DNA of 64,000 nt from Bacteroidota bacterium (GTDB lineage: Bacteria > Bacteroidota > Ignavibacteria > Ignavibacteriales > Ignavibacteriaceae). Positions within the stretch are counted from its first letter, which is position 1; every line of letters begins with the position of its first letter. The notes under the pieces were generated by a model. It saw only the letters and a program-made list of their open reading frames with translations, searched no databases and had not been told where the DNA came from. The translations under genes were made by a program, and so were the position numbers. Of the stretch, positions 3,750 to 28,225 are shown piece after piece. The stretch covers positions 62,001-126,000 of the forward strand of contig JAKAGV010000013.1 in the NCBI GenBank assembly GCA_021815405.1, read 5' to 3'.

Positions 3750-4320
3750 TTTCCTTCCCGATATTTTCCTTCAATATTGAATACCATTTTTTACCATATA
3801 ATCTAATTAACGAATCTTTACAAAAATCTATCAAGTTTATGTTATTCTTTGCACCATTTTCAAGTGCGGCAGAACATTCATTAAATTTTTCAAACCTCAA
3901 AACGTCGCCTCCGAATTTTGAAACACGAATCGGAAAAAGGTGACATGAAATTGGCTTTCTGAAATTAATTTTTCCGTCATTGAATGCGCGCTCGATTCCG
4001 CATTTGGCAATTCCGCGTTCAAAATATACAAATACACAGGCTTTATTGTCCACACTCCTTGTAACAAGTTCACCTTCTTTTTCCTCATAAAAACCTTCGT
4101 CTTCAATAATATCTAAATGTTTTTTAGGAAGATAAGGTTTTACTGCATCTAATACTTTTTCTATTTCACCAATCTCTTCTTTAAGAAGCGGTGCACCGTA
4201 CGGACTTTCAAGCGTGCAGCAGGCACCTTTACATTTTTTTAAATCGCACGCAAACTTAATTTCTGCTATTTCTTGACGAATTATTACGTCTTCAGCTCTG
4301 ATAAAATTATTAACAAACAT
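3736..4320 (-). CDS. DUF3109 family cysteine-rich protein
   Basis: The 194-residue product has a cysteine cluster at Cys25, Cys30, Cys34 and Cys35 (CDLKKCKGACC) and later single cysteines in NKACVF, AKCGIE and ISCHLFP. This layout is that of the DUF3109 family of Bacteroidota/Chlorobiota, which probably binds a metal or iron-sulfur cluster; the function is unknown to me. It starts a minus-strand operon with rpoN, overlapping it by 14 bp. The ATG at 4320 is preceded by an AT-rich intergenic region shared with the divergent SDR gene. Confidence 0.8.
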   Translation of the reverse strand: MFVNNFIRAEDVIIRQEIAEIKFACDLKKCKGACCTLESPYGAPLLKEEIGEIEKVLDAVKPYLPKKHLDIIEDEGFYEEKEGELVTRSVDNKACVFVYFERGIAKCGIERAFNDGKINFRKPISCHLFPIRVSKFGGDVLRFEKFNECSAALENGAKNNINLIDFCKDSLIRLYGKKWYSILKENIGKENVNT

Positions 4321-17731: not shown

Positions 17732-18772
17732 TTGGGAAGAATTCAATATTTTAATTATAACACGATGAACGGCGCGATTGGAAATATTGAAACTACTAAG
17801 CATATTTATTTAAGCAAAGACAAAAAGCCGAAGCTGCTGGAACAAATAAGAATCCATATGAGAAGTAAGTACTATAGCAGAAAAACGGAAGAAGCATATA
17901 TAAAGTGGATACGGGATTTTATAATTTTTAACGGGAAGAAATATCCAACGGAACTAAATAAAACGCATATAGAAAAATTTCTTTCTTATTTAGCAGTGGA
18001 AAAGCATGTATCGGTATCTACACAGAACCAGGCATTATGTGCAATAGTTTATTTGTATAAAAATTTTCTTGTTAAAGATTTCGGCTGGATAGATGAAGTG
18101 GTAAGAGCTACCAACAGAAAAAAGCTTCCGGTTGTGTTTACAAAATCGGAAGCATTGAGCGTAATAGAGAATCTTTCCGGAACGATTAAAATAATAGCTT
18201 CGCTACTATATGGCGGTGGTTTAAGGATTAATGAATGCCTTCATCTTAGGATAAAGGATATAGATATCGCATATAAAAGTTTAACAATAAGAGATTCAAA
18301 GGGTGAAAAAGACAGGACAACTTTGTTACCTCAAAAAATAATTCCGCAGTTGCAGGAACATTTGAGAAAAGTAAAGAAGCTTCATGAAGATGATTTAAAA
18401 AGAGGACGTGGCGCAACATCGCTACCTAATGCATTAGATAAGAAATATCCGAACGCATCTAAAGAGTTTGGCTGGCAATACGTATTTCCAGCAGATAAAT
18501 TTGTTAAGGATGAAGCGAGCAATAAAATAGTAAGGTTCCATATTCATGATTCGACAGTACAAAAGGAAATAAAAAAAGCAGTGAAGAAAGCCGGCATTAA
18601 TAAATCAGCATCGGCACATACATTCAGGCATAGTTTTGCTACACATTTATTAGAGGCTGGTTACGATATAAGGACTATACAAGAATTGTTAGGGCATAAG
18701 TCAGTACGCACGACAATGATATATACTCATATTATTGAAAATTTGCACGGAGTTAGAAGCCCATTGGACTGA
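17732..18772 (+). CDS. intI: Integron integrase (tyrosine recombinase)
   Basis: IntI recombines attI with single-stranded folded attC sites. The 346-residue product has the SAM-like N-terminal domain ([23 protein letters not shown]) and catalytic residues Arg165 (GGLRINE), Lys190, His296, Arg299 (HTFRH), His322 (LLGHK) and Tyr331 (TMIYTH). The integron-specific insert lies at about residues 216-256: [12 protein letters not shown] followed by [12 protein letters not shown] and FGWQYVFPA, which separates IntI from XerCD. The C-terminus GVRSPLD is also IntI-like. The TTG at 17732 follows AGGAAG; an ATG at 17765 is the alternative start and would lose no conserved part. Confidence 0.95.
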
Positions 18773-18941: not shown

Positions 18942-18967
18942 TAAATCCGTATAAATATATGTTAGGC
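18942..18967 (+). other. attI-like primary recombination site
   Basis: The core GTTAGGC lies at 18961-18967, 188 bp after the integrase stop, and marks the start of cassette 1, whose own R'' box GCCTAAC is the exact complement. The bases before it (TAAATCCGTATAAATATAT) have no attC-type inverted arms, as expected of attI. A close copy of this sequence recurs at 25077-25100. Confidence 0.75.
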
Positions 18968-19625: not shown

Positions 19626-19814
19626 GCCTAACATGCCGCTCAACCGGACAGCTTCTTCGCATTTGGTATTTTCGTAATTGTCGGGTTTGTTAGTTCGTGT
19701 CGGCTAACTTGCTCAAGGTTGTTAGGCAAAAAAAGTTTTTTAATAATTATCGGCGTTGCAGTTTTAAGCGGCATTCCTTCTCTGGGCTGCCGGTTAGCGG
19801 CAACATCGTTAGTT
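19626..19814 (+). repeat. attC of cassette 1 (189 bp)
   Basis: R'' GCCTAAC lies at 19626-19632 and the following core GTTAGTT at 19808-19814. The inner arms CCGCTCAACCGGACAGC and GCTGCCGGTTAGCGG pair with single unpaired bases on the left arm, the extrahelical bases known to orient attC recombination. The loop is about 130 bp and includes an internal GTTAGGC. Confidence 0.85.
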
Positions 19815-20753: not shown

Positions 20754-21180
20754 AAATGAAATCGCAGAATTTTTACTAGCAATGGGGAAATTTATAAAAT
20801 CTATGAGCGATGATGATTATGCTAAATTCTTGAAAGGTGATTTACAATTGCAAGAGTTAAAACAAAAGAAAGTTAGAATAAAGGACTCGCTCAAGAAATT
20901 AACTGACAGTGATATTGAAATAATTATTGACAAAATAAAAATCACAAACAATCGAGATGAAGCAAAAACTATTCTAGCAAACGAAGAATCGCTTTCACTT
21001 AAAGAAAATTTGGTTAAAGTTGCTCGTGCATTGAAAATCCATATACAAAAGATTGATAAGAAGGAAGATATAGAGAATAAAATTATCGAATTTATTATTG
21101 GTTCACGCTTGAGGACAGACGCGATCAGAGGATTGAACTTAGGTGAGAATCAAGATGAATCAAATATTAATCGCAACTAA
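20746..21180 (+). CDS. Cassette 2: small protein coupled to the ParA-like ATPase
   Basis: A 144-residue protein I do not recognise. The ATG at 20746 overlaps the last codons of the parA-like gene by 8 bp, so the two are translationally coupled; a TTG two codons upstream is an alternative start. It is charged and helical (MSDDDYAKFLKGDLQLQELKQKK), with no ParB-type helix-turn-helix that I can see. By position it may be an adaptor that stimulates or targets the ATPase. The stop codon falls inside the R'' box of attC2. Confidence 0.7.
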   Translation: MYKNEIAEFLLAMGKFIKSMSDDDYAKFLKGDLQLQELKQKKVRIKDSLKKLTDSDIEIIIDKIKITNNRDEAKTILANEESLSLKENLVKVARALKIHIQKIDKKEDIENKIIEFIIGSRLRTDAIRGLNLGENQDESNINRN

Positions 21181-21363
21181 CCAGCCAATCAAGGCGGACG
21201 CCGTTTTCGCATTTGGCATTTGTATAATTATTGGCTTTGTTATTCCGTGTAATGTTGTTTTGTAAAGTAGTTCTGTTAAATAAATGTTTTTAAATTCATT
21301 GGCAGTTGTCATTTAAGCGGCATCACTGTTCTGGGGCGCCGCTTATCGGCAACGCCGTTAGCC
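21175..21363 (+). repeat. attC of cassette 2 (189 bp)
   Basis: R'' AACTAAC at 21175-21181 complements the start of its cassette (GTTAGTT), and the next core is GTTAGCC at 21357-21363. The inner arms AAGGCGGACGCC and GGCGCCGCTT pair with an unpaired A on the left arm. Confidence 0.85.
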
Positions 21364-21382: not shown

Positions 21383-22714
21383 ATGATAAAAGAAAAAGAG
21401 AAATTAGTATTATTATTTGGTGGCGTTGCTAATGATGGTATTGTCGGACAAATTAGGTCGGCTAATAAAAAATATGTTCAGCGTATTTTACATTCTTCAC
21501 CTGATAACTGGGAAAAAATCAATTTGCTTTTTGAAGAATTTGATATTAGCACTGTAATCGGCAAAATAACCACTAGGACTTTTGAATATCTATCCGATGA
21601 AAATTATAATAATATCAGAGACAAATTATTTAACAACATTTCAAAAGTACCACATATTATATTTGTTTTTGAAGGTTTAATCACTGGAGCTGAAGAAATT
21701 GAAAATGTAGATTACATAGACTATCCCTATGAAACTCATTTACCCAGTGAAGACGTGTTGGAAAATGTTAATAATTTTTTATCAGCTTTGAACTTAAATA
21801 TTCAACCCTATATAAGGACTAGCGAACTAACTCTTCTTGCACAAAGTTTTATTGAACAAGTTGAAGAAGGTTTAGTTTTTAGAATTTACTTACCCCAAAA
21901 TCATTACTTATCAAATGAAATAGATAAAATAATAGTTTTATTTAGTGATTATTTAAGCAAAGTATTAAGTAAAAAAATCAGATTAGACCAAGTGAGAACT
22001 AATTTGGGAGTTATTTATGCTTTTCATACCCAAGATGAATCATACGAGAGAAATATTTCAAAGAATTTTAATGAGTTTACAGACATATTAAACTTGTGTT
22101 TAACTAATCCTCAAAAAGCCGAAGAAATATTAAAACAAAGTTTGTCAAGTTCAAAACAAGTTGATGATATAATTTCTAGATATACAAAAGAAGCAAGAAG
22201 AATATTATTAGATATTAAGCATAGCAGTGAGTCTAAAATTCTTTCTCTTAAGCAAAGATTGGAATCAGAACTTATTGATTATGTCCAAGACGAAAATGAA
22301 ATTAGTTGCATTATAAATAAGATTATTCCCCAATTAATTCATCCAGAGATAAATTCCATACCTTCATTTTTAACACAAACACCGTCTGATAAAAATTTAA
22401 CAATAAATATTAATCAGAAAATATATGAGAAAATAGAAGGAATAGTTATTGATGAATTTTCGGGTTCGTTACAATATAATAACAATGAGAAATTACTATT
22501 AGAATTATTTCAAAAATATGAAGAGAACTCTTATAATGAACTTAAAAGTGCATTAAATGAATTAAAAGATAACTCCGTTCCAACTAAGTATAAAATAGAA
22601 TCTAAACAAAAAATTAAAAACTTTTTAATAAAATTTGGTTCTAAAATGGGTGATGTTGCGTTTAATCTTTTACAAAAATATATAGAGCATCAAATTTTTC
22701 CGGGCACTGGCTAA
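21383..22714 (+). CDS. Cassette 3: 443-residue protein of unknown function
   Basis: I do not recognise this protein. The N-terminal 150 residues look like an alpha/beta domain (KLVLLFGGVANDGIVGQI, then VPHIIFVFEGLI), and the rest is predominantly helical with possible coiled-coil (EARRILLDIKHSSESKILSLKQRLESE is one such region, residues ~270-300). It has no membrane segment or signal peptide. It is strongly A+T rich compared with the chromosome around it. It is the only gene of its cassette, and its stop codon lies within the R'' box of attC3. Large, single, orphan cassette genes are often defence systems, but that is only a prior. Confidence 0.7.
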   Translation: MIKEKEKLVLLFGGVANDGIVGQIRSANKKYVQRILHSSPDNWEKINLLFEEFDISTVIGKITTRTFEYLSDENYNNIRDKLFNNISKVPHIIFVFEGLITGAEEIENVDYIDYPYETHLPSEDVLENVNNFLSALNLNIQPYIRTSELTLLAQSFIEQVEEGLVFRIYLPQNHYLSNEIDKIIVLFSDYLSKVLSKKIRLDQVRTNLGVIYAFHTQDESYERNISKNFNEFTDILNLCLTNPQKAEEILKQSLSSSKQVDDIISRYTKEARRILLDIKHSSESKILSLKQRLESELIDYVQDENEISCIINKIIPQLIHPEINSIPSFLTQTPSDKNLTININQKIYEKIEGIVIDEFSGSLQYNNNEKLLLELFQKYEENSYNELKSALNELKDNSVPTKYKIESKQKIKNFLIKFGSKMGDVAFNLLQKYIEHQIFPGTG

Positions 22715-22897
22715 CAAGTGCTTCAACCCGACAGCGTATTCGCATTCGGCATTTTACAAGTTTTAATGTTAGTCGTTCCGTTTCGGCTAACTTGTTCAAG
22801 GTGTTCTTACAAAACAAAATATTTAAAATCATTAATGTTTGTGCTTCTAATCGGCAGCCTTGTTCTGGGCTGCGGGTTAAGCACAACGCCGTTAGGT
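22709..22897 (+). repeat. attC of cassette 3 (189 bp)
   Basis: R'' GGCTAAC (22709-22715) complements the cassette start GTTAGCC; the next core is GTTAGGT at 22891-22897. Inner arms GTGCTTCAACCCGACAGC and GCTGCGGGTTAAGCAC pair with two unpaired bases on the left. Confidence 0.87.
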
Positions 22898-24089: not shown

Positions 24090-24279
24090 ACCTAACCAGC
24101 TTTTCCACCCGACCGCGTTGTCATTGCGGCAGTATTAATATTTTCGGGTTTAGTGGTAAAGGTAAGCGTTGTTGTTAGGTTTTGTTCTGTGAAATAAAAT
24201 TGTTAAAAATTATTGGCGGTAGCTTTTCAGTTCGGTATTGCTGTTCGGGGCGGACGGGTGAAAAGCCACGCCGTTATAT
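24090..24279 (+). repeat. attC of cassette 4 (190 bp)
   Basis: R'' ACCTAAC (24090-24096) complements the cassette start GTTAGGT; the next core is GTTATAT at 24273-24279. Inner arms around TTTTCCACCCGACCGC and GCGGACGGGTGAAAA pair with unpaired bases. Confidence 0.85.
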
Positions 24280-24357
24280 GCTCAGATAATAATATTGAAG
24301 TTGTCGTAATATGGTCTTATATTTAGTCCAGAATAAAGACAATAAAAGGATACAATA

Positions 24358-24648
24358 ATGAAGAACATCTTAGTTGCAAATGATATAATTCCAGTTGGCC
24401 AATTCAAATCTGGTTTGGCTAAATATCTTAAAGAAATCCAGAACAAGCATAATTCTTTAATTATCACTCAAAATGGAAAACCTGCCGGAGTATTAATCTC
24501 TCCATCGGAATTTGATGATTTGAGACAAACAAAGTTGTTTATCGATTCGATTTCACGCGGTTTATCTGATTCTGAAAAAGGAGAAGTTTTATCTACTTCT
24601 CAACTCAGAAGTGAATTGCGTAAAACTCGTGCCGGAAAAGAGCGATGA
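24358..24648 (+). CDS. Cassette 5: Phd/YefM-type antitoxin
   Basis: The 96-residue product has the antitoxin pattern DIIPVGQFKSGLAKYLKEI, SLIITQNGKPAGVLISPSEFDDL. Phd/YefM antitoxins bind their own operator with the N-terminal part and neutralise the toxin with the C-terminal part. The gene overlaps the toxin by 4 bp (ATGA) and has an AAAGGA ribosome site. Antitoxin-first order with autoregulation is usual. Confidence 0.9.
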   Translation: MKNILVANDIIPVGQFKSGLAKYLKEIQNKHNSLIITQNGKPAGVLISPSEFDDLRQTKLFIDSISRGLSDSEKGEVLSTSQLRSELRKTRAGKER

Positions 24649-24950
24649 AATTATTATGGACTAAAGAGGCTTTACTTCGATTGGAAGAAATTGAAGAATT
24701 TATATCGAGAGATAATCCCAGTGTCGCAACTGAATTTGTTGACAAATTAATTTCAGTGGCTGAAACAATTATTCATAATCCGAAAATAGGCAGAATTGTT
24801 CCTGAATTATCTCTTGAAAACATACGAGAAATATTACATAAGAATTATAGAATTGTTTACTTGGTTAAGAAAAACTCGATTGATATACTTACAGTATACG
24901 AAGGACACCAATTATTAAAGGAAGAAGAAATAATTAAGAATAAGAACTAA
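24645..24950 (+). CDS. Cassette 5: ParE/RelE-superfamily toxin
   Basis: The 101-residue product has the fold pattern of the RelE/ParE superfamily: WTKEALLRLEEIEEFISRDNP, IGRIVPEL, IREILHKNYRIVYLV, IDILTVYEG. ParE members poison DNA gyrase and RelE members cleave mRNA; the NPKIGRIVPE-REI--KNYRIVY pattern is nearer ParE. It forms a toxin-antitoxin unit with the preceding gene, which would stabilise the cassette array against loss. Confidence 0.9.
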   Translation: MKLLWTKEALLRLEEIEEFISRDNPSVATEFVDKLISVAETIIHNPKIGRIVPELSLENIREILHKNYRIVYLVKKNSIDILTVYEGHQLLKEEEIIKNKN

Positions 24951-24957
24951 GAAACGC

Positions 24958-25102
24958 ATATAACCCGCCAATCAAGCGGATGCCGCTCCTACCTGCCGGC
25001 AGGCAGGTTCGCATTCGGCAGCTTTATAATTTATGGTTTAATTTATTTCTTGATTAGACAAATTGAGGGAGATTCTTAAATCGGTCTAAATATATGTTAG
25101 CC
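24958..25102 (+). repeat. Hybrid site after cassette 5: attC left arm joined to attI-like right end
   Basis: R'' ATATAAC (24958-24964) and a normal left arm (CCAATCAAGCGGATGCCG) are present, but the complementary right arm found in the other sites is missing. Instead the last 24 bases before and through GTTAG (25077-25100) match the host attI at 18942-18965 with two differences. A palindromic insert, CCTGCCGGCAGGCAGG, interrupts the left half. The site is 145 bp. Confidence 0.75.
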
Positions 25103-25165: not shown

Positions 25166-25441
25166 ATGAAGTATTTTGAATGGAATGAAGAAAAGAACGA
25201 AAAATTGAAAAGTGAAAGAAATATTTCGTTCGAAATAATAGTTAGTCAGATTGAACTAGGACATCTGCTTGATATTATAGAGCAACCTAATAAAGAAAAG
25301 TATGCAAATCAATATATATATGTGGTTGAGTATGAGAAGTATGCTTATTTAGTTCCATTTGTAGAAGATTCAGATAAAGTATTTTTGAAAACTATTATCC
25401 CAAGCAGAAAAGCGACAAAAAAATATTTAGAAGGAGAATAA
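25166..25441 (+). CDS. Cassette 6: BrnT-like toxin
   Basis: The 91-residue product begins FEWNEEKNEKLKSERNISFE, close to the BrnT pattern FEWD--KN---L-KH-ISFE, and ends KVFLKTIIPSRKATKKYL. BrnT toxins are small RNase-like proteins of the RelE fold. The internal YANQYIYVVEYEKYAYLVPF region differs from typical BrnT. The next gene, 1 bp downstream, encodes a ribbon-helix-helix protein, the expected BrnA-like partner; toxin-first order also agrees. Confidence 0.8.
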   Translation: MKYFEWNEEKNEKLKSERNISFEIIVSQIELGHLLDIIEQPNKEKYANQYIYVVEYEKYAYLVPFVEDSDKVFLKTIIPSRKATKKYLEGE

Positions 25442-25442
25442 A

Positions 25443-25709
25443 ATGAAGTTAGACAAAGAAGAGAAAAAGTTATTAAAATCATACGAAAAAGGTGAATGGA
25501 AATCAGTAAAGGATTTGGAAAAGAAAAAGTTAGAATATCAGCGATATGCTAAAAATACGGCTGCTAAAAACAAAAGGATAAATATCCGTCTAACGGAAAG
25601 AGATTTAGCAAACTTAAAAGCTAAATCATTAGAAGAAGGAATGCCCTACCAAACACTCGTAGCAAGTATAATTCATAAATATATTTCCGGAAAATTTAAG
25701 GAAGCATAA
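25443..25709 (+). CDS. Cassette 6: ribbon-helix-helix antitoxin
   Basis: The 88-residue product has an acidic/basic N-terminal half that could bind the toxin, and a C-terminal ribbon-helix-helix KRINIRLTERDLANLKAKSL followed by GMPYQTLVASIIHKYI. The latter is the standard pattern of CopG-like antitoxins. It should bind its own promoter together with the BrnT-like toxin. A GGAG ribosome site lies in the end of the toxin gene. Confidence 0.88.
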   Translation: MKLDKEEKKLLKSYEKGEWKSVKDLEKKKLEYQRYAKNTAAKNKRINIRLTERDLANLKAKSLEEGMPYQTLVASIIHKYISGKFKEA

Positions 25710-25727
25710 ACATAATTTATAAAAATG

Positions 25728-25916
25728 GGCTAACCAGCCAATCAAGCGGACGCCGTTTTCGCATTTGACAATTTCGTAATTATTGGCATTGTAGTTCCGT
25801 GTTAAGTTTCTTGTTCATAGTTGTTCTGTTAAATAAAAATTATAATAAATAAAAAGTTGTTGGTATTATTCGGCATCCTTGTTCTGGGGCGCCGCTTATT
25901 GGCAACGCCGTTATGT
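25728..25916 (+). repeat. attC of cassette 6 (189 bp)
   Basis: R'' GGCTAAC (25728-25734) complements the cassette start GTTAGCC; the next core is GTTATGT at 25910-25916. Inner arms CCAATCAAGCGGACGCC and GGCGCCGCTTATTGG pair with single unpaired C and A on the left arm. It is the most regular of the set. Confidence 0.88.
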
Positions 25917-27693: not shown

Positions 27694-28000
27694 TATACTT
27701 TATTTTTCTCGGTTTACTATATTCCTTACTAAGCAGAGGAACAATAAAACGGAATTGAGTTGAGCTGCCGCGGTTTGGCAACAGCATAAAAAAGTATATT
27801 ATATAAAATCAAATATAAAAGAAGTAAGTTACCCAATTGATAATAGGAACTGGAACCCAAGTTTAATACCGGGTGCTATTGCATTTATTTCTAAATAGGA
27901 TTCGAGTGATAATCCGAAAATAGTACCCAAATGCTGAATTCAATGGTATGGAAACAAAAGGATAACAAAATCCGGTTTGAGCTTAACTAAGGCAGCATAA

Positions 28001-28225
28001 ATAAATGCTACGCTGATAAATGAGTGCAAGACACATCCGGAATGTAAGTTAGTCGATACTAAAAAAATCGGCAGCGGTTTTGTAATTTTCGGAGAAATAA
28101 TAGCAGCCACAATTTTGGAAGATATACTTAATGCATCTTCGGAGGAGCGGGACGAACTTTTGGATCAAATAATATATTTGGAAGATAATTTATTCTCATC
28201 GATAAATAAGGTTATAAAACTATGA
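28001..28225 (+). pseudogene. Remnant of a flavin-reductase-like gene
   Basis: The open segment reads LINECKTHPECKLVDTKKIG followed by SGFVIFGEII, the C-terminal half of the flavin reductase-like (DIM6/NTAB) domain, and ends at a TGA overlapping the GH5 start codon. There is no start codon, and upstream (27900-28000) only broken, stop-interrupted similarity such as EFNGMETK can be followed. The 27694-27900 part of the gap shows nothing identifiable. The gene is decayed. Confidence 0.65.

Follow-up and report, generated by a model that had tools for sequence, protein, structure and literature searches.

Within the 64,000-nucleotide stretch of DNA analysed here (the window), an attI-like sequence lies inside an array of integron cassettes rather than in front of it, and this raises the question of what kind of recombination site occupies positions 24958–25102, between cassettes 5 and 6, and how it came to be there. 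We put a probability of about 0.9 on the site being a hybrid of attC and attI, in which the left part is cassette 5's own attC and the right part, which adjoins cassette 6, reproduces 20 nt or more of the attI end that leads up to the crossover.

The integron and its ordinary recombination sites

The host genome (4.97 Mb in 31 contigs, 99.98% complete) contains in this window a complete integron, with intI, an attI core and six cassette recombination sites. Both its integrase gene, which scores above the TIGR02249 cut-off, and the presence of an attI adjoining intI followed by attC-bearing cassettes (five attC sites with paired arms) place the locus among the integrons. The cassettes and intI share one orientation, with intI reading towards the array. 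The features flanking the site under study are as follows.

17771–18769, + strand: intI, integron integrase (TIGR02249, E 7e-125, 416 bits against a cut-off of 265)
18942–18965, + strand: resident attI core TAAATCCGTATAAATATATGTTAG, crossover between 18961 and 18962
19626–19814, + strand: attC1, end of cassette 1; arms pair (z −7.1), R'' complementary to the cassette 1 start
21175–21363, + strand: attC2; arms pair (z −2.4)
22709–22897, + strand: attC3; arms pair (z −4.4)
24090–24279, + strand: attC4; arms pair (z −4.1)
24358–24950, + strand: cassette 5 genes, a Phd/YefM antitoxin (24358–24648, PF02604) and a ParE/RelE toxin (24645–24950, PF05016); homologous cassettes occur in other genomes
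25166–25709, + strand: cassette 6 genes, a BrnT-like toxin (25166–25441, PF04365) and a CopG-like antitoxin (25443–25709, PF12441), both domain matches lying under their curated cut-offs
25728–25916, + strand: attC6, an ordinary attC; arms pair (z −4.2), R'' complementary to the cassette 6 start

The resident attI core lies approximately 173 nt 3' of the intI stop codon and, because both this spacing and the core itself recur in the closest relatives (loci L041, L042, L072 and L014), its identity as attI rests on synteny, beyond mere resemblance. Direct reading of the sequence shows that the R'' element at the end of each of cassettes 1–6 is the reverse complement of the start of its own cassette. 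No resistance gene was recognized in cassettes 5 and 6, and an Rfam search of the region returned no match. The Phd/ParE cassette (window 24262–24964) is shared with four other loci (L140, L142, L145 and L148), with 81–89% DNA identity up to R'' and a different sequence beyond it in each, and the cassette 6 gene has 96% protein identity with a cassette gene of genome G123.

Two further observations concern integron elements of the same genome. At window positions 27988–28010 the sequence TAAGGCAGCATAAATAAATGCTA has a profile score like that of an attI core; it reads GCT where the core has GTT and is possibly a decayed attI. In addition, contig C16 carries a second, frame-broken intI (242413–243367) with at least four attC sites and an attI of its own type, GAATTCGGCTTAAATAATAG; we considered this copy as a donor of the attI-like end and rejected it, as the attI types differ.

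The junction between cassettes 5 and 6

The junction can be divided into the following parts.

24958–25040, + strand: left half of attC5, with R'', L'' and some of the spacer; similarity to its subfamily's attC sites extends to about 25035–25040
24992–25007, + strand: palindromic insert CCTGCCGGCAGGCAGG in the spacer of attC5
25035–25076, + strand: filler of approximately 42 nt, whose similarity to attI leaders, attC sites and intI is no better than that of shuffled sequence
25077–25100, + strand: attI-left copy (ΔattI) plus core, with two mismatches to the resident attI; crossover between 25096 and 25097

The left half is a genuine attC5 beginning, with an R'' of GCATATAAC (24956–24964), the complement of the cassette 5 start GTTATATGC, and the homologues of cassette 5 stop at or near R'', with other sequences beyond. 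To assess the right half we relied on direct arm-to-arm pairing, because global minimum-energy folds, in which the outer arms were paired in just some of the true attC sites, were uninformative and were dropped. The outer 40-nt arms of attC1, 2, 3, 4 and 6 pair with energies of −15.4 to −24.3 kcal/mol (z −2.4 to −7.1), whereas those of the 24958–25102 site reach only −5.5 kcal/mol (z +1.1). Complementary arms that could fold into an attC hairpin are therefore lacking here, the right arm being absent, just as the preliminary description of this DNA had claimed when it noted that the arm is present in the other sites.

The same description had reported an attI-like match with two differences, and indeed the 24-mer TAAATCGGTCTAAATATATGTTAG at 25077–25100 is identical with TAAATCCGTATAAATATATGTTAG at 18942–18965 at 22 of 24 bases, the differences falling where they had been placed. 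A search of the window allowing up to three mismatches found only these two sequences, 100 shuffles gave no match at this threshold, and in the whole 4.97-Mb genome there is a single third match, at C9:2906, with three mismatches and with no intI in the 12 kb searched around it. The 24-mer is thus not a frequent genomic repeat, the finding that was to have counted against an attI origin. We then compared 27 related integrons (272 kb of downstream sequence), in 25 of which the best internal same-strand copy of the array's own attI-left has 6–11 mismatches, as against two mismatches in the window and in genome G136, the only other array with a comparably close internal copy; opposite-strand controls gave 6–10 mismatches. 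Given the shuffles, the genome search and this comparison with its strand controls, the attI-like match stands far outside the background.

The right-hand limit of the site is set by the homologues of cassette 6 in G123 (92.5% DNA identity) and G144, which align from exactly 25096 and have unrelated DNA upstream. As cassette 6 starts precisely there in two other genomes, 25096/25097 marks a genuine boundary between cassettes, with the attI-like sequence lying outside cassette 6. Together with the synteny of attI in the relatives, this exact boundary supports the earlier suggestion that cassettes 6–7 sit beside a second attI half. It is a half and not a whole: the conserved core is present up to the crossover (25077–25096, 2 mismatches in 20), but a neighbouring intI and an attI leader are not. 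When the region is aligned with the resident attI, the shared sequence begins at 25077 with none to its left, and neither an intI relic nor any attI-leader similarity was found left of that position, so that a secondary attI in complete form, one of the three origins originally proposed, is not borne out. Neither the 73 attI leaders nor the 33 attC sites nor the 3' end of intI matched the filler at 25035–25076 above the level of shuffles.

A palindrome had also been noted in this site. It is certainly present, but it is not specific to the site, since CCTGCCGGCAGGCAGG is a dispersed repeat found in 46 of the 164 genomes of the order, with up to 50 matches per genome (both strands) and zero control matches. 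A similar attC in genome G126 (L127), whose right arm is normal, contains a near-identical palindrome in the corresponding position. We therefore rejected a role for the palindrome in forming the hybrid; it is an independent insertion, unrelated to the hybrid site.

Origin of the hybrid

Of the origins suggested beforehand, the best fit is a recombination scar joining attI to the left arm of an attC, and we lean, at slightly better than even odds, towards an aberrant attI × attC insertion. Cassette 6 would once have been first in the array, directly at attI, and cassette 5 would then have been inserted at attI without its single-stranded attC hairpin being copied through. Once past the left arm, synthesis would have abandoned the hairpin and continued on the parental attI strand, immediately to the left of the crossover, and attI-left would in this way have been preserved ahead of cassette 6; four further cassettes would later have been added ahead in the normal way. 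Both this order of events and the copying mechanism, including its template-switch step, are what we infer from the arrangement of the segments. An aberrant insertion would yield the observed order from one event and would account for a break inside the hairpin. It is favoured by the attI synteny, the outlying match, the exact boundary, the genuine attC5 left half lacking its right arm, the ΔattI-type cassettes known from class 1 and 2 integrons (PMC12901181, PMC4670013) and the occurrence of similar hybrids in genome G038. In G038 (L199), an attC left arm, AACCAGCAAATCAACCGAACC, is followed by GGTATAAGTAATAG/TTA, of which 17 nt are identical with the attI core of the congeneric genome G034, and these sites show that short attC/attI hybrids like that of the window exist elsewhere. 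On contig C263 of the same genome, cassette ends on the − strand at 252, 1939 and about 2340 have in common an attI-like right half, either GGCAGTCAGGTTTGGTATAAGTAATAG/TT or nearly so, and one of these ends also has an attC left arm; possibly this is a repeated hybrid site.

Three points speak against an aberrant insertion. The attI-left copy and the resident attI disagree at 2 of 20 positions, while the attI of a congener (L119) differs at only 1 of 20, and a foreign origin is therefore possible; the filler of approximately 42 nt between the halves has no match above shuffles; and the comparable internal attI of G136 stems from a relic platform and not from a copying error.

This last case gives substance to the duplicated platform of the preliminary description, which we retain as the main rival, though a less likely one. 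Here two integrons would have been joined by cointegration or duplication, cassettes 6–7 would derive from the other integron, and after deletion of its intI and attI leader the end of its attI would have become fused to attC5. G136 (L170/L200) provides an instance of such an arrangement, with a second attI at position 2592 that has two mismatches to the primary one and, roughly the usual distance ahead of it, an intI relic (81% identical over 21 residues), and with a degenerate attI-like site at position 3764 preceded by an N-terminal intI fragment; these copies and relics show that the order does contain stacked relic platforms. Genomes G109, G097, G017 and G018, where apparent attI sites have a truncated intI or none in the vicinity, point the same way, and a relic platform would also explain why the attI-left copy is not identical with the resident attI. 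The window resembles G136 in having a second attI within the array with two mismatches to the primary, but in G136 an intI relic lies ahead of the internal attI, whereas the window retains no remnant of intI or attI leader left of 25077. Moreover, the fusion would have had to fall by chance both within attC5 and just left of the attI core.

A further reading, which we consider very unlikely, is that of a double-stranded recombination between the L box of attI and R'' of attC followed by rearrangement. This reaction was put forward for, and explains, the common ΔattI1-11 form among class 1 integron cassettes (PMC12901181, citing Partridge et al. 2000), but it should replace attC from R'' onwards, and the site in the window retains R'', L'' and some of the spacer alongside at least 20 nt of attI. 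Lastly, that an otherwise normal attC, whose right end is unusual and AT-rich, came to resemble attI by chance or convergence is hardly credible, even in this AT-rich region, given the lack of shuffle matches, the position exactly at the crossover, the non-complementary arms, the next-best matches of at least six mismatches in 25 of 27 related arrays, and the few close 24-mer matches in the order among the matches listed, of which those examined are attI-like sites.

We also recorded attI-like sequences elsewhere in the order. The four such sites of G136 (contig C3, − strand, 10746, 8230, 3764 and 2592) lie within approximately 8 kb, two with intI relics ahead, and apparently represent stacked, decayed integron platforms. 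The loci L121 and L122 (G109), L120 (G097) and L125 (G017) have attI-like sites with cassettes or genes downstream and no intact intI nearby, L121 possibly keeping a C-terminal intI relic. In addition, the attI-like core GGNNTAAKTAATAGTTR occurs in 3–5 copies per genome in G107, G099, G108, G125, G144 and G145, above the reversed-pattern control, and not all of these copies are near an intI.

Relation to known ΔattI cassettes and predicted behaviour

Class 1 and 2 integrons are already known to contain ΔattI-type (unusual) gene cassettes (PMC12901181, where they are given as type ii of Partridge et al. 2009). In these, a fragment of attI, mostly 14–18 nt, replaces attC from R'' onwards; how they arise is described as an open question, and several are excised by IntI1 at 4% or more (PMC12901181). 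The window site shares with them the loss of the attC right arm and a terminal piece of attI that is cut short, runs to the crossover and is followed by the next cassette. Its 25077–25096 segment, 18/20 identical with attI-left and directly before cassette 6, corresponds to the definition of ΔattI as a 3' site ending in partial attI. The attI fragment does not start at R'', a feature typical of ΔattI although outside the wording of that definition, and as R'', L'' and part of the spacer are retained we regard the site as a variant ΔattI. It differs from them in the retained attC left arm (approximately 80 nt of attC left half, plus filler) and in its setting, a chromosomal integron, in an environmental Ignavibacteriales-type bacterium, whose intI is oriented as the cassettes are; in the open-licence literature we found no description of a ΔattI-type cassette in a chromosomal integron of this group. 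In the blaGES-1/aacA4 fusion, where the two genes are mobile together but not singly (PMC4670013), the attC of the first cassette is likewise replaced by part of attI (attI1), but just 6 bp of attC are left, whereas both halves are longer in the window, for which co-mobilization is a prediction.

As the hybrid cannot fold as an attC, cassette 5 is probably mobilized only together with cassette 6, through attC6, and position 25096 may be at most a weak double-stranded attI-like site. Both predictions draw on analogues, namely the blaGES-1/aacA4 fusion and the ΔattI cassettes excised by IntI1.

The retained left arm shows that a break within the attC hairpin is possible, for which the proposed L-box × R'' crossover offers no explanation, and G136 and G038 provide a natural comparison between a relic platform and short hybrid sites. 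New cassettes, as a rule, join an array at its front; if hybrid sites were active, cassettes could enter mid-array, contrary to this rule. That hybrid attC-left/attI-right sites form a recurrent, working class in the chromosomal integrons of Ignavibacteriales seems to us unlikely, but if it were true, arrays would gain internal docking points for new cassettes, and neighbouring cassettes, such as both toxin–antitoxin pairs here, would be locked into joint units.
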